Source: Thraustochytrium sp. TN22 (Eukaryota; Sar; Bigyra; Thraustochytrida; Thraustochytriidae). From it: a stretch of 64,000 nucleotides of DNA. Positions 13,243 to 57,508 of this stretch are shown here, in pieces. The DNA is taken from contig JABLUY010000002.1 of assembly GCA_013306675.1 (NCBI GenBank), positions 248,001 through 312,000 on the forward strand. The letters are read 5' to 3'. Numbering within the stretch: the stretch's first letter is position 1; each line of letters opens with the position of its first letter. The notes beneath the pieces are model-generated. The model did no database searches, was not told the origin of the DNA, and worked only from the letters and a program-made list of their open reading frames with translations. Both the position numbers and the translations under genes were made by a program.

Positions 13243-16200
13243 ATGGCGGGTGGCCCCTTAGCGAGGCTGAAAAGATGGTGGAACTCGGCCAACTCGGCCA
13301 AACGCGAGCAGACGACGGAGCTGGAGGCCGAGGATGAGCGGACGACGGAGCGGGAGGCCGAGGGCGAGCAGACGACGGAGCTGGAGGCCGAAGCAAGGAA
13401 CATGACGACTGAGGCGGGTAGCGCGCGGGACAGCGTCGCCCTCGAGTCTGCCATGCCTGCGGACCCGCAGCCGGACCTCATAAATGTTGCTGTGCTCATC
13501 GTGCATGCGCCAGAGGACGAGGCCAAGGCGGGAGAGCTCATAGATGCAGTCCAGCCACGCCTGAGCGAGACTATCCAGCTCGCGACTTCTGCTGAAGCTG
13601 TGGAGGCGCTGGCAAGCAGGATCGAGGTTGCCATCGTGTTGGTGACCGAGGCACTCCATGACCCGGAGTGCAGGCCTCTCCTTGCAAAAACTGGCGACCT
13701 GCTGCCAAATAAGCTTGTGCCTGTCGTGGCGGACGATAGCATGCTTTTGCAAAAGGCGTGGCAAGGTGCAGTGAGCTTCTTGATGGCAAACGTACTGTAC
13801 TTCAACTTCTGCAAGCCGGAAATGGCCAGAATCCCCCGCCTCATCAGGATGATCGAGTCCACTCATCACGGGGCGGAGCCATATCGCGATTGGGATGTCT
13901 TTCTCTCGCATGAATGGGACGCGCACGAGGACGCTCGAAGCATCGCCCAGGCCCTAGAAGCCGACCATGGCCTCAAGGTGTGGCTTGATGAGAAGGACCT
14001 CGAAGGCACCATCGACAACGCGGAGGCTAGCGGCATCGAGGGCTCCAAGGTGTTTTTGGTGCTCGCGACCGAAAGGTACATGACGAAGATCAACAGCGGA
14101 GATCGCTCGGACAACTGCCTGAAGGAGTTTCGCCACGCCTGCACCCATCGCTTCGATCGAATCGTCGTGGCAGCCTTGGAACCAAGTATGATGGAATTCA
14201 GGTCCGGAATGCATGGGGAGTTCCAGCTCGCCCTGGCGTACCAGAAGCCGGTAGACGTGTACAGTAGCACCCTGGGCAGTACCGCAATTAGCCGACTTGC
14301 ATCTCTTATCAAGGACCGCATCCGCATTCCCACGGCCTCGGCAGCTCCACAGCTGTCGCCACTGTTGCGCGAGTGGTACGCGTCACTGGACCCACATAGC
14401 TCGGAGACAAGAGCCCGTGACTTTGCGAAGAAGTTTACGAGCGGAACTCGTGGCTGGATCTTCGAGAAGCTCCATAAGTGGTATGCGGAGGCCAACGAGC
14501 CCATCTTCGTGCTGCTCGGCGAAGGTGGTGTCGGTAAGAGCGTCATCATGGGCGAGATCTGTAACCGAGGGGGTGCATTTAGTGTGCCCTCCCAGGAGGT
14601 TGGTGCCAGACCGTCTTCCCGGCGGAATAGGCTCGGTTCGGAGCCAGCGGTCCTCGTCGCTGCCTATCATTTCTTCCGCCACGACGAGGCCATTGCGAAA
14701 TCCCCCACGGAGGCCCTCATCAGCATCGCATGGCAGCTTTCTCTCAATGTGCCCGGCTTCAAGGAGGGCCTGCCGCAGTCCAGAAGTGATGACCTTCGCA
14801 AGGGCACGCTCCCCGACATCTTCAACAGTCACTTGCGTGAACCGGCGAGCAAGCTTCAGAGTGATGCGGTCTCGCGCCAGGTAGTCGTCTTGGATGCTCT
14901 GGACGAGTGTGGCGCAGCGAAGCTACTCCTGGACAAGGTCATTTGTCTCTGGAAGGAGTACATGCCTGCGTGGCTTGGGCTCATCGTCAGCTCGCGACGG
15001 GAGGGCGTGGTCCTCGACCTCCTGGAACAGGTTGACCAGGAACGTGACCTCATTGAACTCAAGGATGAGCGGAACATGAGGGACGTCGGACTCCACATAA
15101 GCCATATCCTGCGCGATATGAGCGAGTTCGTCGATCCAGCAGCTGTGGACGAGTGCACGGAGTTGCTCACTTCACGGTCTGAAGGTTTGTTCCTGTGGGC
15201 GAGCTTCCTGCCTGAAACGATCAGACTGGCGGCTAAGCGCAAGCGCAATGGCAGGAAAGGATCCAGAGAATTGCTCACGTTCGAAGACATGCGGCGTGCG
15301 ACCCTCACCCTGGTGGGCTTATCTGGCATGTTCAGGGTTTATTTTGGGCGACTGAGGCGAAAGCTGCGTCGGAAAGTTCGGGGCGGCCAGCGCGTGTACA
15401 ATGTTCTGCTCGAAGCGATCATCGCTGCACGCGAGCCGCTCGGTCCCCAGCAACTCCGGCATGTCCTAGACATTCAGGACGAAGGGGACGAAGGCAACCT
15501 GGACGAGATCATGGGCAAGGCACAGAATCTTCTTTACAAGTCTGGCGACGGGAAGTACGCTCTTATCCACAAGAGCATGGCGGATTGGCTAATCCACCGG
15601 GTCCCGACCTGGAAGAAGCTGCACATCAATCGCGAAGCCGGCGACAAGCGCCTCGCCGAGTACTGCATGAAAAATGGCGACGGCCCCGGCGATGCATTTG
15701 CGTTTAGGCACGCGGTCTACCACCTCGCAAGGAGCAAGCAATCCGAGCAAGCCTTTGACCTCCTCAACTACTTCACATGGGTGCAAGACGCCGTTGAGGC
15801 TGATGGCGCCCAGGCTCAGCGGAGCGCGGACGCTCTGGTGCGCGACTGTGATGAGCTCGGCATCTTCATGTCCATGGAAAGCTCCACGCCTCGCCTGCTT
15901 CACAGGGCCAGAAGAGCGCTGATGTGGAGCCCGCGTGAGCTTCCATCGCAGGTCCTCGCTCGCTATGGATCGAGAAGTGCTGATGTCATGCTGCAAAACT
16001 TGGATTCGCCCAGAGGATTGTGGCTCAGGCCGGTGATGCCGAACCCCTCACTTCGCCACCCGCGAGACCGGGCTGGACATGTGCTGGAGGGCCACTCGGC
16101 GGATGTGAAGAGCGTGGCACTGCAAGGGTACCGGGTCGTCTCTGTATCCTCGGACCGCACCGTTCGGTTTTGGAACGCGTTGACTGGTGAAATGCAGCGA

Positions 16201-18015
16201 ACAATTGAGGAGCGGACTTCTGAATTCGTTTCTGCTGCTGTTGCCCTGGACGTGGACTGGTGTGTTGTCGGAGGGATGCGGACAGTGAAAGTCTTGGATG
16301 CTGTGACGGGCGAGCAGCGCCATGCGCTGGATGGCCACTCTGACGATGTCACGTGCGTGGCGGTGCGAGGGGACCTGGTGACGTCTGGGTCCAAGGACAA
16401 GACAGTGCGAGTCTGGGATGCGATGACGGGCAACGAGCTGCATATGCTAGAGGGCCATTCTGGCAAGGTAACTGGCGTGGCGGTGCACAACAACCGGATT
16501 GTGTCCGGATCTGTCGACATGACCGTGCGAGTGTGGAGCGCCGAGAGCGGCGGCGAGCTGTACGTGTTGGAGGGCCACTCTGCGGCAGTAAACGGCGTGG
16601 CGGTGCACAACGAACGGATTGTGTCAGGGTCCGACGACAAGTCGGTGCGGTTGTGGAGTGCGGTAAACGGCGAGATGCTGCATGTGCTGAGTGGTCACGA
16701 TGGAAGGGTGACCAGTGTGGCGCTGGAAGAAGACCGGATCGTATCCGGTTCTAACGACAGTTCGGTGCGGGTATGGGATGCGGACGGCGAGCTGCAGTAT
16801 GTGTTGAATGGCCACTTCAGCTACGTGACCTGCGTCGCGATGCACGGGGACCGGGTCGTGTCCGGATCTCTGGACAAGTCGGTGCGGGTCTGGGACTTGA
16901 TGCCAATCATTGTGCAGGAAGGACTGGAGGATTCTTCGGTCGACACAACGACGTGCGGGGACAGGACGGCCAACGCATCTGATTCCCGCTTCAGTCTGGA
17001 GAATTTCCCTCGTCACGAATCGCGGGTGACCGCACTTGTGTTCGGGCCTTCTTTGGTAGTGTCCGGATCTTTTGACGGGACCATCTGTGCATGGAATGCG
17101 CAAACTGGCGAGCTGCAACACAAGATCGACGCCCACTCCAAAAGCGTGACCTGTCTCGCGTTGCGAGGAAATGTTCTAGTGTCTGGCTCCAACGACGCGT
17201 CTGCGAAGATCTGGGACGCGAGGTCTGGCAACCAACTGCACAAGCTGCATGGCTGTGTCTGGAGGAAGGAGAACGAAACAAGGGATATACAGATGGGCTT
17301 CGCGCAGTTTGAGAGGAACGTTATTCGCACCACGCGCACATTCTATCACACCCAGGGGGTCACCTGTGCGGCGCTCTTCGACGAGAAGGTGGTGTCAGGG
17401 TCAAACGACAACTCGGTGGTGATCTGGAGCGCCACTAACGGGGAGCTAGAGGGTGTGCTTACGGGCCATAGAAGAAGTGTGACCAGCGTGGCGATGACTG
17501 GGGAGATCGTCGCGTCTGGATCCGAAGACAAAACGGTGATCGTCTGGAGTGCAACGTCCCACACCCAACTGCATCGCCTCGAGGAGCATCAAAAGGCAGT
17601 CACGAGCGTTTCAATCTCGGAAGGCTTCATCCTGTCAGGGTCCGCCGACAAGACGGTCCGTTTGTGGAGCGCGGAAACTGGCGACTTCTTGCGTTCGATG
17701 GAAGGCGATGCTGGATCGGTTGTGTGCTTGGAAGCTGGACACGATCGAGTCGTGGCAAAGTCGAAAGACGGTAGAGTTCGTTGCTGGAAGCTGGATACAG
17801 GTAAAGAGGCCTCCTACGTGGACGAGGCCTCCGATGTGGACGATTGCGATGAGACTTTCCCCGTAGCGGTGGAGGCTTCGACCCACGTTGGCCTCCGTAA
17901 CGGTGAGGGATTCACGACAGATACAGAAATTACCTGTGCTGTTCGAAGAGGGAAGGTCTACGTCGTTGGCGACAAGAGTGGCGGTGTCCACATTCTCCAT
18001 GTCACCGATAGCTGA
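13243..18015 (+). CDS. TIR-NACHT-WD40 (NLR/STAND-type) signalling protein
   Basis: One uninterrupted 1,590-residue frame. After a charged head with three 10-residue repeats (22-51), residues ~80-170 look like a degenerate TIR fold and ~214-340 a full TIR: WDVFLSHEWDAHEDA, KVWLDEKDL, SKVFLVLATERY and NCLKEF, whose Glu295 aligns with the catalytic Glu of NADase-type TIRs. A NACHT/STAND ATPase follows with Walker A GEGGVGKS (426-433, Lys432) and Walker B VVVLDALDEC (547-556). A helical linker leads to 14 WD40 blades (~950-1590), enough for two seven-bladed propellers; blades 3-7 are 117-120 bp apart. Architecture suggests a ligand-sensing, oligomerising immune or death switch, by analogy with plant, animal and fungal NLRs. 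Third-position GC is lower than in neighbours. Confidence 0.9.
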   Translation: MAGGPLARLKRWWNSANSAKREQTTELEAEDERTTEREAEGEQTTELEAEARNMTTEAGSARDSVALESAMPADPQPDLINVAVLIVHAPEDEAKAGELIDAVQPRLSETIQLATSAEAVEALASRIEVAIVLVTEALHDPECRPLLAKTGDLLPNKLVPVVADDSMLLQKAWQGAVSFLMANVLYFNFCKPEMARIPRLIRMIESTHHGAEPYRDWDVFLSHEWDAHEDARSIAQALEADHGLKVWLDEKDLEGTIDNAEASGIEGSKVFLVLATERYMTKINSGDRSDNCLKEFRHACTHRFDRIVVAALEPSMMEFRSGMHGEFQLALAYQKPVDVYSSTLGSTAISRLASLIKDRIRIPTASAAPQLSPLLREWYASLDPHSSETRARDFAKKFTSGTRGWIFEKLHKWYAEANEPIFVLLGEGGVGKSVIMGEICNRGGAFSVPSQEVGARPSSRRNRLGSEPAVLVAAYHFFRHDEAIAKSPTEALISIAWQLSLNVPGFKEGLPQSRSDDLRKGTLPDIFNSHLREPASKLQSDAVSRQVVVLDALDECGAAKLLLDKVICLWKEYMPAWLGLIVSSRREGVVLDLLEQVDQERDLIELKDERNMRDVGLHISHILRDMSEFVDPAAVDECTELLTSRSEGLFLWASFLPETIRLAAKRKRNGRKGSRELLTFEDMRRATLTLVGLSGMFRVYFGRLRRKLRRKVRGGQRVYNVLLEAIIAAREPLGPQQLRHVLDIQDEGDEGNLDEIMGKAQNLLYKSGDGKYALIHKSMADWLIHRVPTWKKLHINREAGDKRLAEYCMKNGDGPGDAFAFRHAVYHLARSKQSEQAFDLLNYFTWVQDAVEADGAQAQRSADALVRDCDELGIFMSMESSTPRLLHRARRALMWSPRELPSQVLARYGSRSADVMLQNLDSPRGLWLRPVMPNPSLRHPRDRAGHVLEGHSADVKSVALQGYRVVSVSSDRTVRFWNALTGEMQRTIEERTSEFVSAAVALDVDWCVVGGMRTVKVLDAVTGEQRHALDGHSDDVTCVAVRGDLVTSGSKDKTVRVWDAMTGNELHMLEGHSGKVTGVAVHNNRIVSGSVDMTVRVWSAESGGELYVLEGHSAAVNGVAVHNERIVSGSDDKSVRLWSAVNGEMLHVLSGHDGRVTSVALEEDRIVSGSNDSSVRVWDADGELQYVLNGHFSYVTCVAMHGDRVVSGSLDKSVRVWDLMPIIVQEGLEDSSVDTTTCGDRTANASDSRFSLENFPRHESRVTALVFGPSLVVSGSFDGTICAWNAQTGELQHKIDAHSKSVTCLALRGNVLVSGSNDASAKIWDARSGNQLHKLHGCVWRKENETRDIQMGFAQFERNVIRTTRTFYHTQGVTCAALFDEKVVSGSNDNSVVIWSATNGELEGVLTGHRRSVTSVAMTGEIVASGSEDKTVIVWSATSHTQLHRLEEHQKAVTSVSISEGFILSGSADKTVRLWSAETGDFLRSMEGDAGSVVCLEAGHDRVVAKSKDGRVRCWKLDTGKEASYVDEASDVDDCDETFPVAVEASTHVGLRNGEGFTTDTEITCAVRRGKVYVVGDKSGGVHILHVTDS
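13306..13395 (+). repeat. Three 30-bp in-frame repeats in NLR N-terminus
   Basis: Three adjacent 30-bp units encode EQTTELEAED, ERTTEREAEG and EQTTELEAEA. They are still close at DNA level, so recent slippage is likely. Confidence 0.85.
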
Positions 18016-51551: not shown

Positions 51552-54500
51552 CTAGATCTTGGTCTCGAGGTCCCTATCGTGAGGACGGAGTCGAGAGTGC
51601 GATCGTCGTGACGAGTGGTGCGCGTGCCTGCCGACGTAGCGCGAGGACTTGGAACGAGGCTTGAGGCGATTGCGCCGAGGGTTCGAGGACGACCCGGCCA
51701 CGCTGCTGGTGGACATGAGCGAAGGTACCGAGGAGACGCGCTCCAAGTCGCGCCGAAAGTTGAGCAGCCACTGCGAGTGCTCCTGAGCCAGCGCCTGGTG
51801 CTCACTCCAACGCGTCTCCATGAGCCGCATCTCCTCCGGCAGGACGGACACCTCGCGAAGGACCGGCGCCGGGGATGCTGACCTAGAGTCCGCAGCGGCG
51901 TACGCGCTCGCTGCCGCAATCGAAGTGTCTAGCCGCTGGTACCCGTTCTCCACATGCGAATTGCTGCTCGGCGGTCGGAAAGGGCGCGGCCGAGGCACTG
52001 GGACGACGGGCGGCGCGCTTGCTTCGTGCAGAATCTGGCCATGTTCATCCACAAGGACATACTGTCGCGGAGGCGCGGCCGGAAGGTAGTAGGGCAACGG
52101 CGCCGAGGCCGACTGCGGGTAGACCGGGTAGGCGAAGGCGGCGGCGCTCGAGACGCCAGGCGCCAGCGGCACCCGCGGCGGCGGCGCGGCCGATGCGCTC
52201 GCCGCATGCCGCATCTCCGGTACACTGGATGGATGGTAGTGGTGTTGGTGGTGCTGGTGGTGCAAGTAGCGGCTTTGCGCCGTCCCATTGCCTAAAAACG
52301 AGGCGTTCTCGTCGCCGCCGGGCCCCATCGTAAAACCATCCATGCCGTCATCGGCATCATCGTCAACGTCGTCGTTCTCGGCGCGGCCGGCATCGCCGAG
52401 CAAGAAGTGATCCGCGCGGTAGGCGTCGAGCGCACGCACAAAGGCGGCCCGCGCCTGCGCATCCTCCGGATCGGCTGCGCAGCGCGCAGCGTGGTCGGCC
52501 ACGGCGTCGCGCATCTCGGCGAGGCCGTGAAGCCACTCGAGCTTTTGCTCCAGGTCGCGTAGTGCGTCCGAAATCTCGTCAACCTGAAGCTCCAGCACGT
52601 TGCCGACCTTACCAATGGCGGCCGACTGTTCGCCCTCACCCAGGTCGCGCCACGCCGCCTGCTGCCGAGTGAGCCGTTCGCGCTGCTCTTCGAGCTCGCG
52701 CTGCTGGTTTTGCAGCAAGTCCTGCGCGGACGCGATGGCCTCGCGCTCCGCGTCTGCTTCACGCTTCCACACGACCAACAGCTGCGCCTGGTCAGCCTCA
52801 GACATGCTGCCGCGACCGGCGTAGCCACTCCGCCGCTCTGGTACCGGAGTGGACGCGCCCTCATGCTGGTCGCGGAGACGCTGCTCGAGGCGTAGCAGCT
52901 TGCGCTTGACCTCCTTGGCGTGGTCCTCCACCTTGCGTCGCTCGCGCTCCAGCGCACGCCGCTCCTCGTCCAGGCGTTGGCGCTCCGCCTCGCGCGCACG
53001 CTGCATGCTCGCGAGCTGCTGCTGCAGGTCGCGCACGCGCTGCTGGAGGTCCAGGGTCTCCTGCGTCGCCTGCGCCATCTGGTCCTCGGTGCGCGGACGT
53101 TTCGCCACGGCAGTTGCCAAGGCCGCAACGGCCGCCGCCTTGGCGTCCTCCAGGTCCGCCATCTGCTGATGCAGGCCGTCCACCTCCTGAATGGCGTCCT
53201 GACGCTCCTTGTCGGCCTTGCGAGCTTGCTCTCGGAGGGAACGTACGGTTTGCATTTGAGCGGCGAGGCCATTCCGCGCCTCGTCAAGCTCTTGGCGCAG
53301 GGAGGAGGCTTCCTCTTCCAGGTCGGCCTTGCGAAGCGCGTGCTGGCGGTTGGCGGACTCCAACGCGTGAAGGCGACGCTTCTCCTCGCCAGCGGCGGCC
53401 CGCTGGCTCGCCAGCTCCTCGCTCAGCTCCTCCACCTGCTGGAGTGCATGCGACTCGGCCTCGCGCGCATGCGACACTTCGGCCTCGACCTTGCGGAGGC
53501 GCGTCCGCAGCGCGTGGGCGTCGCGCTGCAGAGAGACGACCTCCTGCGCCTGCAACGCGTGTGAAGAGGAGCGCTCCGCCTCCTCGGCGCGCGCCCCGAT
53601 CTCGGCCTGGCGCGCCGCGTCGAGATCGCTCCGCAGCGCGTCGACCTCGGCGTGCGCGCCGCGTAGCTCCGCGTGCAGCTTCTCCGCCTTGGCGCGTGCG
53701 CCGTCGGCGCTGTCCCGGGCGGTCTCTAGGTCGCGCTGCAGGGCGGCTCGCTCGTCGCGGAGCGCCGCGGCCTCCTCGCGCGCCCGCGCAAGGTCCGCGC
53801 CGGCATCGCTCTCGTCGGCGCGGCCCGCGAGCGCCGCGCGCGCCGCCTGCACTTCCGCGTGGAGGTGGGCTTGGTCACTGCGCGCCTCGTGCATGTCAGC
53901 GCCCAGTTGCTCGTTCAGCTCGGCCAGTTCTGCGTTGGCCTCGCGCAGCGTCTTGATCTCGCGCAAGAGGCGGCCCGCCGTGTCCTCGTCGTTGCTGGAG
54001 GCTGTGGCACGCACGGTCTCGGCCTCCTCGCGGGCCGCGCGCAAGTCGTTGCGCAGCCGCGCGATCTCCTCGTCGCGGCCTGCGCGCTCCGTCATGTGCA
54101 CTCGCTCGGCCTCGCGGAGCGCCTCTTGCAGGCCCTCGCGCTCCGCAATGGCGCGCTGCTGGCCGGCGCGCGCCTCTTCGTGCTTGCGCTCGAGATCGTT
54201 GACTTCGCGCGCCAGGGCGGCGCTGCGCGCGCGAGCCTCCTCGAGCGCGGCATTGGACTCGGCCTCTCTAGAGCGGGCCTCGCGGCGCGCCGTGCCCTCC
54301 GAGGTTTCTGCTCTCGCGAGGTGCGCCTTGAGGGTATCCACCTCGTTCAGGAGGGCGACGCGCTCGTCGCGCGCCTGAGCGCGCGCCTCAGTCAGCTCGG
54401 AACGAGCCGCGTGCAGCTGTCGGCCAAGCTCGTGCAGGTTGCGCTCGGTTTCCTCTTCGCTCTGCGCGGCCCTCCGCGCCTCGCTCGTCTCCAACTCGGT

Positions 54501-56930
54501 GCAGCGCGCCGTGGCCACGGCCTCGCGCTGCTGGCTCGTCTGCAAGCTGGCCTCCGAGGCGCGAAGGTCTTCAAGCGCCGTTTGCGCGCGGACCCGCTCC
54601 TCGTCCAGCTCGCTCTGGGTCGCCTCGCTCAGTGCCTGCGCCTGCTTGGCCTCGGCGCGGGCGGCCTCGAGCAGCCGCTGCAGCCGCTGTTGCTCCTCGC
54701 GGTGCCTCGCGGCGTCCGCGCTCTGCTTCTCTTCGGCTGCGCGGGCGCGCTCCATGGCGCTCGCGACGGCCTCCTCGGAGGCGTGGTCGTCATTCTCGTC
54801 CTGCTCCGCAAGTTGCCGACGGGCGCTTGCCAGATCGTCAGCCGCGGCGGCGCGCGCGTCCTCTGCAACGCGCAGACGCTCCTCCAGGGTCTCATTCTCG
54901 CCCGCCAATGCGGTCGCCTCGGCCTCCTGCTCCTGCAGGTGCGCGCGCATCTCCTCGCCCTGGTCGCGCGCCTCCTGCAGCTGCTCGCGCAAGCTGGTAA
55001 GTTCGTCCTCGAGCTCCGCGGCGCGCGCCACGGCCGCGCGCCTCTCAGCGACGAGGGCCTCGTCCTGCGCCGCCGTGGCGTGGTCACTGGCGGCGGCGCG
55101 CATCTCGTCGCGTCGTCTCAGGTCGGCGGCCTCCTGTGCCATGTCGCGGGCGTGCTGCTCGGCGCGCTGGCGCGCAGCTCGCTCCTCCTCGAGCTGGTCG
55201 TCCCGGTCTGCAAGAACCGAGTCGAACTTGGCTTGCACGTCGGCGGCGTCTTCGAGGCCGGAAAGCTGCGCGCGGTAGGCGTCAATGTCGTGCTGCAGGC
55301 CGCGCAGCTGCTCTTGCCTCGTCCGCTGCTCCTGTTCCATCCGATTTGTTTCCTGCTGGTGTCTGGCACGGAAGTCGTCGCTGGCATTTTGCAGGCGCGT
55401 GCGTTCTTCGAGAAGCTGGGTGTCGAGATCGCGCAAGGCATTCTGGAAGGCAAGCTCCTTCTGCTCCTTCCGTCGCTCCATCTCGCGGCGACGCTCTTCG
55501 AAGTTCTCGTTCATCTGGTTCAGCATATGCGAGTGATCCTCCTCCTGTCGATCGCGCTCATCTTTGTGTTCGCGTCGCAGACTCTGGAGATTCTCGTTCA
55601 GCTGTGACTCGAGCTGTTGCCTCTTGCGTTCGTGCTCCTTGCGCAGCTCCGCGAGCTCGTTAGCGTGCGCCTCCTTCTCCTCGCGCAGAGCGTCCACGTC
55701 GCCGCCGCCGCTGCTGCTGCCGCTGCCGCCCGAATGGTGCTGCAGCGCGCGCCTGGTGGGCAATTCGCGCTGGGCGCCAGAAGTGCCGAACGGGTGGGGC
55801 ACGACGTCAGGAGCCGGCTCGCTGCGCATGCTCCTACGCCGCCTGCGGTCGTCCTCGGTCTTGGCCTCGTGGCCCCTAAAGTGTCCCGCGCGGGCACCGT
55901 CGGATGTCGGGTCCGGGGAGGAGAAAGCATCTTTGGCGTGGCCGCCGCCGCCGCGGCGGCGGCGGCCGTGGACATGGTCGTCGTAGCTTTCGTCATCGTG
56001 CCCAGACCCATCGTCGTAATCGCCGTCGCCTTCATGGTCGGCCTCCTCGTCGTACTCCACGTGGTGGTGGTCGTGACTGCCGCGACCCCGGCCGGATCGC
56101 ACGAGCCGTTGCTGGCTCGCGTTGCTCGGGCCGAGGAAAGAGGGCTCCCTCCCGGACAGCGCGCTGGCACCGTTGCCCAGGTTTGGGGACGGCGCGCCGC
56201 CGGCATCATCCAGGGAATTCGATGCTGACGGCGTCGCGACATTGTTGTCGCCTATGCCACCGCCGCCACTGCCACTGCCGCGTGCCCTGATATGTGGAAG
56301 AACGGGCTTGGCGTTGAGCGGCTGCAGGCCGCCCCCGGAGGCGCCATTCAAGCTGCCGTCGAGACCGCCATGCGAACCTGCCGCCGCCATGGACCCGGCC
56401 CTCTGGAGGTCGCGTTGGCCGAGGTTGGTGCCGCGGAATTGGCGCAGCGAGTCAGACAGAGGCTCGCTCGCCGCTGCCTTTTGCAAAGACACAATGCGGC
56501 GCACCTCGTCGCTCTCCTTGTTGTGCCTCTCATGATCGTCCTGCGAGATGAAGTTCTGGCGCGACGCGTTGCGCCGGCGCTTCTCCTCCTCGTATAAAGT
56601 GCGGTAGTACGAGTCGCACGGATGGTCCCAGCTCGATTGGCCGTCCGCGAACGAGAAGTAGTAGATCTCGCCAGTATCCAGGGTGCGGCACGGCTTCCAG
56701 TGCTCCGGCAGCGGCGCCTTGAGCCCTTCCCGCGCGATCCAGAGAAACTCGTCGTCCTCCGGAAAGCTCATGCCCAGCCACTTGCCGTAGTCGACGCACT
56801 CCTCGTGCGACGGCATGTAGTTCGGGTCAATCTCCTCCTCCAGCACCACGCTGTCTGAGTTGTTCTGCTGCGGCTGCGGCTGCTGCGCCGCCCCGACGGC
56901 CGCCGCCGCCGCCCCAGGGTTCGCCGCCAT
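51552..56930 (-). CDS. CEP164: CEP164 homologue (basal-body distal-appendage protein)
   Basis: 1,792 residues in one exon (human 1,460). Residues 28-120 match the CEP164 head: VVLEEEIDPNYMPSHEE, FLWIAREGLKAPLPEHWKPC, a WW core GEIYYFSFADGQSSWDHPCD and YYRTLYEEEKRR. About 430 residues of Gly/Ser/His-rich linker follow, then ~1,000 residues of nearly continuous coiled coil and a disordered Pro/His-rich tail with basic end. CEP164 sits on distal appendages of the mother centriole and its WW head recruits TTBK2 to start cilium assembly. The ATG at 56930 is chosen because it precedes the head; an in-frame ATG at 57389 would add 153 Arg/Gly-rich residues. It heads a cluster of WW-only paralogues. 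Confidence 0.92.
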   Translation of the reverse strand: MAANPGAAAAAVGAAQQPQPQQNNSDSVVLEEEIDPNYMPSHEECVDYGKWLGMSFPEDDEFLWIAREGLKAPLPEHWKPCRTLDTGEIYYFSFADGQSSWDHPCDSYYRTLYEEEKRRRNASRQNFISQDDHERHNKESDEVRRIVSLQKAAASEPLSDSLRQFRGTNLGQRDLQRAGSMAAAGSHGGLDGSLNGASGGGLQPLNAKPVLPHIRARGSGSGGGGIGDNNVATPSASNSLDDAGGAPSPNLGNGASALSGREPSFLGPSNASQQRLVRSGRGRGSHDHHHVEYDEEADHEGDGDYDDGSGHDDESYDDHVHGRRRRGGGGHAKDAFSSPDPTSDGARAGHFRGHEAKTEDDRRRRRSMRSEPAPDVVPHPFGTSGAQRELPTRRALQHHSGGSGSSSGGGDVDALREEKEAHANELAELRKEHERKRQQLESQLNENLQSLRREHKDERDRQEEDHSHMLNQMNENFEERRREMERRKEQKELAFQNALRDLDTQLLEERTRLQNASDDFRARHQQETNRMEQEQRTRQEQLRGLQHDIDAYRAQLSGLEDAADVQAKFDSVLADRDDQLEEERAARQRAEQHARDMAQEAADLRRRDEMRAAASDHATAAQDEALVAERRAAVARAAELEDELTSLREQLQEARDQGEEMRAHLQEQEAEATALAGENETLEERLRVAEDARAAAADDLASARRQLAEQDENDDHASEEAVASAMERARAAEEKQSADAARHREEQQRLQRLLEAARAEAKQAQALSEATQSELDEERVRAQTALEDLRASEASLQTSQQREAVATARCTELETSEARRAAQSEEETERNLHELGRQLHAARSELTEARAQARDERVALLNEVDTLKAHLARAETSEGTARREARSREAESNAALEEARARSAALAREVNDLERKHEEARAGQQRAIAEREGLQEALREAERVHMTERAGRDEEIARLRNDLRAAREEAETVRATASSNDEDTAGRLLREIKTLREANAELAELNEQLGADMHEARSDQAHLHAEVQAARAALAGRADESDAGADLARAREEAAALRDERAALQRDLETARDSADGARAKAEKLHAELRGAHAEVDALRSDLDAARQAEIGARAEEAERSSSHALQAQEVVSLQRDAHALRTRLRKVEAEVSHAREAESHALQQVEELSEELASQRAAAGEEKRRLHALESANRQHALRKADLEEEASSLRQELDEARNGLAAQMQTVRSLREQARKADKERQDAIQEVDGLHQQMADLEDAKAAAVAALATAVAKRPRTEDQMAQATQETLDLQQRVRDLQQQLASMQRAREAERQRLDEERRALERERRKVEDHAKEVKRKLLRLEQRLRDQHEGASTPVPERRSGYAGRGSMSEADQAQLLVVWKREADAEREAIASAQDLLQNQQRELEEQRERLTRQQAAWRDLGEGEQSAAIGKVGNVLELQVDEISDALRDLEQKLEWLHGLAEMRDAVADHAARCAADPEDAQARAAFVRALDAYRADHFLLGDAGRAENDDVDDDADDGMDGFTMGPGGDENASFLGNGTAQSRYLHHQHHQHHYHPSSVPEMRHAASASAAPPPRVPLAPGVSSAAAFAYPVYPQSASAPLPYYLPAAPPRQYVLVDEHGQILHEASAPPVVPVPRPRPFRPPSSNSHVENGYQRLDTSIAAASAYAAADSRSASPAPVLREVSVLPEEMRLMETRWSEHQALAQEHSQWLLNFRRDLERVSSVPSLMSTSSVAGSSSNPRRNRLKPRSKSSRYVGRHAHHSSRRSHSRLRPHDRDLETKI

Positions 56931-57508
56931 CTTGTGTCCACGCGGGACGCGTCGCGCCGCCGCTGCTCGCCCGCGCCGCCCGGCCGAGCCCGGCCCCGGC
57001 CGCCCGCCCGCGCCCGCCGCCGCGCCGCCGGCCCTGCCAGCGCCGCCGCGCCCGCTCGCGCCCGCCGCTCGCGCGCCCGCCGCGCCCGCGCCGCGCCGCG
57101 CCGCGCCGCGCCGCCGCCGCCGCCGCGCGCCGTTTCGGGCTCTGCCACTGCACTGGCCGGGCGGGCTCGGGCCGAGTCCGAGTCCGAGCCCGCGCCCGAG
57201 CCCGAGCCAGGGCTCCGTTGCAGCTTGTTGGAGACCCGAGTCAAGAACCCGAACCCCGCCGCTGTGCAGCAGCAGCAAGTCCTTTGCAGGCTGCTCAGGC
57301 TCGGAGCGGGCTCGCTGCCGCCGAGTGGACTGCACGCTCTCGATTCGTATTCTCTTCTTGATTTTGGGTTGCTTTTTTATGCGTGACATGTCACGGTGCA
57401 GCCTGGGGCCTGCGGATAACTATGCAGGATGAGATGCGTCATTGCGTCATCGATGCGAACCCACTGTCAGCTTGGCTTGCTTGCAGAGGTCCGACGCTCG
57501 CTTGGAGC
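56931..57508. other. Spacer between CEP164 and first short paralogue
   Basis: 578 bp, the proximal part extremely GC-rich (GCCGCC/CGCGCC runs, 56960-57140) with GAGCCC/GAGTCC hexamers near 57172-57215. The CEP164 frame stays open through most of it but codes for Arg/Gly/Ala low-complexity. Confidence 0.5.

Follow-up and report, generated by a model that had tools for sequence, protein, structure and literature searches.

The window analysed here, a whole stretch of 64,000 nucleotides from Thraustochytrium sp. TN22, holds on its forward strand one uninterrupted reading frame at 13243-18015, which runs from an ATG at 13243 to a stop at 18015 and encodes 1590 residues in the order TIR-TIR-NACHT-WD40. 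A first-pass annotation of this DNA had proposed a single frame with these domains and key residues, and its length, the Pfam matches and the motif positions bear this out. The same annotation had made a point of the single exon; the single frame stands, but the view that it is notable was rejected, as the fetched paralogs are likewise long single frames. A chance origin of the predicted domain assignments is excluded by their E-values and by their conservation across 20 fetched paralog regions. The flanking genes are tubulin-tyrosine-ligase, MORN-repeat and phytanoyl-CoA dioxygenase-like, and these neighbours make the setting a eukaryotic one. The gene has a GC content of 0.589 and a GC3 of 0.705. 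Four neighbours (GC3 0.82-0.93) and the 13 family genes measured (0.71-0.88) all exceed this GC3, the paralog L028 coming nearest to it (0.713). Elsewhere in the window, on the reverse strand at 51552-57389, lies a frame of 1945 residues with a WW-domain match slightly below cut-off (24.3 vs 26.9 bits).

The second TIR domain, TIR2 (residues 214-361; 13882-14325), is a complete TIR. When the head fragment was searched, Pfam TIR_2 scored 47.9 bits over residues 219-313 (E 2.4e-12; cut-off 28). It is the sole Pfam family to match the head above cut-off, leaving no HET domain there, and even at E values as high as 10 Pfam reported neither DUF4062 nor CARD in it. The motif CLKEF at residues 292-296 places the glutamate of the CLxEF-type motif at residue 295 (codon 14125-14127), as had been claimed, and this is the predicted catalytic residue. 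Its column is invariant in all 17 rows of a chosen TIR alignment (six NACHT proteins including that of the window, seven other TIR genes of the same genome and four bacterial proteins), and by eye 18 of the 21 NACHT proteins, a total that includes the one from the window, have an equivalent glutamate; the exceptions are L015 with a glutamine, L013 with a deletion and L026, which is without the region. The 17-row profile matched 54 distinct solved sequences at E ≤ 0.01, headed by the NAD(+) hydrolase tir-1 (E 1.5e-14), SARM1 (chains from 1.8e-13, a tir-1 chimera, to 2.7e-9) and the CRISPR-associated Cat1, with plant resistance TIRs, bacterial TIRs, SEFIR domains and receptor TIRs among the weaker matches. 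In these alignments the glutamate column falls on the glutamate of WVHKEIV in SARM1 and of WCWDELE in Cat1, and the KE of tir-1 is aligned too; the glutamate of SARM1 and tir-1 that aligns with Glu295 we take to be the catalytic residue in those proteins. Two PADLOC bacterial defence TIR models also match the head (ThsB, E 2.1e-7; PDC-S66, E 1.9e-7). TIR2 is the probable NADase output of the receptor.

The first TIR domain, TIR1 (residues 80-207; 13480-13863), is of a different character. No Pfam TIR model matches it and no TIR is among the matches of its profile to solved structures, and the notion of TIR1 as a TIR recognisable in Pfam or the PDB was rejected; it was recovered only by profile comparison within the family. 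There, a profile of seven sequences (the window gene, L009 and L011-L015) aligns over 116 columns to a 15-sequence TIR2 profile (hhalign probability 98.3, E 2.4e-14), and the CxxE motif is absent from the alignment. Because of this match and the loss of the motif we read TIR1 as a diverged TIR copy without the CxxE helix motif, so that the "degenerate TIR" placed first in the protein gains support from this within-family comparison. TIR1 occurs in the window gene and in L009-L015, partly in L026, and was not seen in the other fetched paralogs.

Downstream of the head, Pfam NPHP3_N, which we take to be a NACHT-type model, matches residues 401-585 (14443-14997; E 8.8e-16), and both the Walker A motif GEGGVGKS (residues 426-433; 14518-14541) and the Walker B motif VVLDALDE (residues 548-555; 14884-14907) are intact, in agreement with the NACHT ATPase first proposed. 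NB-ARC remains below cut-off in the window protein (E 0.053, 13.2 bits vs 23.5). A TANC1-like winged helix of the STAND module (HTH_TANC1, PF25521, E 2.9e-9; 15403-15738) comes next, followed by the WD40 models, and the features of a STAND/NLR protein, a NACHT with Walker A and B, a winged helix and C-terminal repeats, are all present. An NPHP3_N-type NACHT was found in all 21 paralogs and the P-loop pattern in 20 of the 21. The NPHP3_N model alone is not specific, because it also matches 9 of 14 control prokaryote genomes, five of them above cut-off.

The C-terminal sensor (residues 950-1522; 16090-17808) comprises 13 WD40 units recognised by the family model. A further segment at the C-terminus, GFTTD...GDKSGGVHIL (17908-18003), would complete a 14th unit and close the last blade, and inspection by eye showed similar segments in 14 paralog tails, that of L028 being visible only partly. 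The "exactly 14" repeats reported previously are reasonable on this count, although not exact, and 14 blades as a rule for the family was rejected: elsewhere in the family, in arrays uncut by a gap, contig end or stop, the recognised units number 7 to 20.

The gene is one of many in its own genome of 37.9 Mb. Using the TIR2-NACHT part as a tblastn query we found at least 63 places, at least 24 of which, window gene included, span TIR and NACHT (query start ≤ 65 and end ≥ 600, counted from the table with 60 of 110 candidates scored), and paralogs reach 51-52% identity to the window gene. All family counts are lower bounds, while haplotypes may be among the places counted: L009 and L010 are 98.3% identical over 3.6 kb. 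TIR_2 was matched by at least 123 stretches, 114 above the curated cut-off, and NPHP3_N and COR-A by at least 46 stretches each, while among the 14 control prokaryote genomes TIR_2 had matches in four and COR-A in one. Twenty-four TIR stretches lie no more than 1.5 kb upstream of NPHP3_N on the same strand, and two of these in addition follow COR-A by no more than 2.5 kb; a further 35 lie within 2.5 kb downstream of COR-A (37 with the two ambiguous ones), and 64 of the 123 fit neither class. Roc-COR GTPases with a C-terminal TIR, for example L030, L032, L033 and L034, constitute a second large class. Among eight fetched TIR genes without a NACHT, four carried Roc and COR-A and then a C-terminal TIR (one with N-terminal LRRs), one carried Mind-bomb and ZZ, one LRRs, and two no other Pfam family.

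Several single loci deserve mention in their own right. L012 (C242) is a single frame of 2048 residues with a second TIR-NACHT-like stretch ahead of the main one, and L044 and L045 (C121 and C166) are NACHT-WD40 frames in which, by eye, no TIR is recognisable ahead within the frame. In L031 (C391) a Mind-bomb SH3 repeat and ZZ finger slightly below cut-off are joined to a C-terminal TIR. Tandem TIR stretches spaced by about 1,043 bases occupy C160:192-5666, four of them with one in-frame TGA. A different, tandem-repeat C-terminus for L010 was considered and rejected, the apparent openness of several frames being a run of N. Likewise, inspection by eye had suggested an ARM-TIR protein for L029, which found no support in Pfam; against solved chains at E ≤ 1 the part before the TIR matched sperm-associated antigen 6 (E 1), presumably an ARM protein, a designed-looking tandem-repeat protein (E 0.029) and two unrelated chains. 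At C124:26703-35603 there is a frame of 3044 residues strongly matching a PfaA-type PUFA synthase, with one middle part of the model matching repeatedly, and the search of the genome found no match to a light-harvesting family; together the two results are in keeping with a labyrinthulomycete.

Homogenised WD40 repeats were found among the paralogs, with a mean within-gene DNA identity between units of 0.84-0.96 in four of 19 arrays (L016, L023, L024 and L025). The units of the window gene are not internally homogenised, with DNA identity averaging 0.52 and none of the pairs exceeding 0.85, and because they are too diverged the evidence of diversification comes from the paralogs; the case for a recognition system rests there, not on the window gene alone. 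The comparison of interest is with the fungal receptors het-E, het-D and het-R, in whose WD40 units codons 7, 9, 25 and 27 are described as under strong positive selection around the conserved codons 8 and 26 (Paoletti 2007, PMC1805685). Aligned by motif, these codons correspond to positions 5, 7, 21 and 23 of the units studied here, a mapping that is fixed because a conserved Val and a conserved Asp stand between the members of each pair. Three of the four are the R1-2, R1 and D-1 top-face contacts of PMC3419727, the assignment to these units being our own.

In eight paralog arrays, 47% of the non-synonymous and 12% of the synonymous differences fall on these four of the 40 positions, and the fungal set ranks second of 91,390 possible sets of four. 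pN exceeds pS at the four positions in seven of the eight arrays, the exception being L020 (pN below pS); at the other 36 positions pN is below pS in all eight, and pN at the four is above pS at the other 36 in all eight. Amino-acid change in the paralog sensors is therefore concentrated at the four top-face positions of the fungal het-E, het-D and het-R receptors. Across 174 units we counted 146 residue combinations at these positions. The counts are of distinct units, in pairs of at least 0.80 DNA identity, with His at position 2 and Trp at position 28, by which 174 of 201 units were kept over all genes. The eight arrays were chosen from the 19 for the similarity of their units, with a mean identity of only 0.74 in L012 and 0.71 in L020, and the test was not blind: the entropy profile was seen first, then positions known from the fungal literature were tried, and then the four codons of the paper. 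The sets tried earlier, of six and eight positions, held 57% and 60% of the non-synonymous change, respectively. It should also be considered that hypermutation or conversion may contribute, because pS at the four codons is itself raised in several arrays, and that homogenised arrays are prone to misassembly (PMC12222747).

In trees of 17 of the 21 proteins, L012 groups with the window gene for both NACHT and TIR2, with support of 100/100 in each, and its NACHT has an identity of 0.29-0.32 to the 11 compared members of the other clade. All 12 usable WD40 units of L012 nevertheless have their closest counterparts in that other clade, at a mean best identity of 0.79 against 0.63 to its own clade and of up to 0.93 at the DNA level. 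A nearest-unit search is biased towards the other clade, because that clade holds more units; as a baseline, units nearest to it number 5 of 10 in the window gene, 11 of 17 in L009, 3 of 6 in L014 and 2 of 2 in L015, at almost equal identity. One identical 120-base unit is common to L019 and L024. It appears that NACHT lineages with a deep split between them have passed sensor repeats to one another, exchange being the best explanation of the cross-clade similarity. Exchange of the TIR head, suggested by L024 and L025 (identity 0.81 in NACHT and 0.41 in TIR2), is supported only in part: the TIR data reject the pairing of the two (p-AU 9e-7), and the NACHT tree itself does not join them with support, while the NACHT data reject a group of L018, L019, L022 and L025 (p 0.0009) but not one of L018, L019 and L025 (p 0.072). 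These tests used the same 17 proteins, and the groups were defined with the identities already known.

The window gene is real and was correctly described, and its architecture has precedents. The first-pass annotation had held the architecture to be unusual in itself, a claim that is not supported, as bacteria have TIR-NACHT-WD40 proteins, Chondrus crispus has TIR-NB-WD40 and humans have DUF4062-NACHT. A scan of a collection of 84,980 prokaryote species with two peptide patterns found at least five loci. In Oligosphaera ethanolica (L037), TIR, NACHT and some 14 WD40 units lie in one frame of 1476 residues, the TIR and NACHT being assigned from tblastn, family alignment and a profile match, with only the propeller families appearing in Pfam. 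A Burkholderiales MAG (L038) has TIR_2, NPHP3_N, HTH_TANC1 and a weak WD40 match in a frame that leaves its contig; L039 has TIR_2 and NPHP3_N without WD40, and the L040 frame was aligned in its TIR part. The Oligosphaera and Burkholderiales proteins share with the window gene the domain order and the CxxE motif, but differ in having 24% identity and only one TIR in the frames read. In the 12 distinct units of the Oligosphaera protein 51% of the non-synonymous change and 33% of the synonymous fall on the same four positions, the repeats varying most at top-face positions, yet its genome has a single matching gene, in contrast to the expanded family here; within its phylum 12 of 288 genomes have any match at E 0.001, three of them strong, Oligosphaera included. 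Phage, plasmid and viral contig collections yielded no relative, and viral, phage or plasmid relatives were rejected on that ground.

Fungal HNWD receptors (PMC1805685, PMC2873952, PMC4986451, PMC12222747), among them het-E, het-D and het-R of Podospora anserina, likewise join an N-terminal effector, a NACHT and a WD40 sensor, and resemble the paralogs in their homogenised units and in change at the same four top-face positions (PMC1805685); they differ in that the head here is TIR_2 rather than HET, that there is an extra pseudo-TIR, and that the repeats of the window gene are not homogenised. In the red alga Chondrus crispus a TIR-NB-WD40 family has been reported (PMC7145615, PMC9806590), with a TIR in 23 of 58 NB-WD40 genes, and it too has a TIR head, an NB ATPase and WD40 repeats and is expanded (PMC7145615); the comparison is by description, the Chondrus ATPase being called NB or NBARC in those papers whereas NPHP3_N, and not NB-ARC, is above cut-off here. 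TIR-NBD-WD40 is also stated for plants and bacteria (PMC9153377). Plant TNPs and TNLs combine TIR, a STAND ATPase and repeats, but with NB-ARC and TPR or LRR in place of NACHT and WD40 (PMC9806590), and in APAF1, in which WD40 propellers follow a STAND ATPase, a CARD replaces the TIR and an NB-ARC the NACHT (PMC13174449). For labyrinthulomycetes, a keyword search of the literature gave no report of such a family among the matches listed, which is weak evidence of absence as subscription papers are mostly uncovered, and the available part of PMC10732462 holds nothing on TIR-NACHT in protists.

We consider it probable that the window gene is a member of an expanded STAND receptor family, intracellular and borne by a single-celled eukaryote that is non-photosynthetic, with a NADase-type TIR2 and with WD40 sensors that are diversifying across the family. 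For its enzyme activity, oligomerisation, ligand class, outcome and the role of TIR1 we infer the following course. The WD40 propellers would bind a specific protein, which may come from a pathogen or from a conspecific that is non-self; this would free the NACHT module for nucleotide exchange and oligomerisation, and the resulting ring would bring copies of TIR2 together, which would then cleave NAD+ or make a signalling nucleotide from it, leading to cell death or defence. TIR1, with a TIR fold but without the glutamate, may have no enzymatic part and serve in packing or autoinhibition. In the family as a whole, sensors would be homogenised, exchanged between loci and diversified at the four top-face positions, in the manner of fungal het-E, het-D and het-R. 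The earlier proposal of a TIR effector on a WD40 sensor, acting as an innate immune or death NADase, holds in so far as the receptor architecture, the conserved NADase-type glutamate and the matches to tir-1 and SARM1 are all there; the expansion of the family and the diversification of paralog sensors favour a role in recognition or immunity, and more strongly than that annotation could.

The same machinery could instead serve conspecific ligands, in a family for allorecognition, that is, self/non-self fusion, rather than of antimicrobial receptors. The evolution of the paralog sensors does match the fungal het genes position for position, but the one genome examined gave no sign of cell fusion or allelic polymorphism, and we regard this as unlikely. 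Somewhat less likely again is a STAND protein with a housekeeping role, comparable to TEP1, NPHP3 or TANC, that would be the scaffold of a vault, ciliary or cytoskeletal complex and have its TIR as a protein-interaction or low-level enzyme module. The ATPase and winged helix match NPHP3_N and TANC1 models and TEP1 propeller models match the WD40 part of the window protein; moreover, human TEP1, NWD1, NWD2 and NPHP3 have a TIR-like domain beside the NACHT, adjoining it in TEP1, NWD1 and NWD2, several with WD40, and the TEP1 of vaults combines a TIR-like NADase with a NACHT and WD40 (PMC13174449). That TIR-like domain is DUF4062, however, which is not among the Pfam matches of the head here, and about two dozen divergent paralogs, some with homogenised sensors, are not what would be expected of a structural component.

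At much the same low level, if a shade lower, we place a dead or scaffolding TIR2 in a protein whose signalling would depend on the recruitment of further TIR or ROC-COR-TIR proteins from the same genome. Some 100 other TIR stretches could supply such partners and TIR1 offers the example of a pseudo-TIR; against this, the glutamate of TIR2 is strongly conserved and its best solved relatives are NAD hydrolases, although receptor TIRs and SEFIR domains are among the weaker ones. Bacterial contamination or a recent bacterial import is very improbable, for although bacteria have the same domain order and the GC3 of the gene is lower than that of its neighbours and of the family genes measured, it sits between tubulin-ligase and MORN-repeat genes and its closest paralogs far exceed the 24-25% identity of long bacterial matches; an ancient bacterial import is possible.

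Returning to the reading of an expanded receptor family, its broadest form is a unicellular, heterotrophic protist with a large and actively diversifying TIR-NACHT repertoire, accompanied by dozens of ROC-COR-TIR genes, in which pooled WD40 repeats are homogenised, traded between distant receptor lineages and selected at the fungal contact positions, an independent evolution outside the fungi and wired to a NADase. This we advance tentatively, the weight for and against it being close to even. What stands out is the repertoire around the window gene; the domain order was already known from bacteria and a red alga. If true, intracellular recognition of the repertoire type, its sensor repeats evolving in concert, would extend to a microbial eukaryote that is neither fungus, animal nor plant, and would there be linked with a TIR head predicted to consume NAD. 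The four sensor positions predict both the site of ligand specificity and the sites that should be polymorphic among strains, and direct tests are thereby possible. Labyrinthulomycetes include cultured members, and the function of these receptors is therefore open to experiment. The family suggests that microbes may have evolved recognition repertoires more widely than has been thought.
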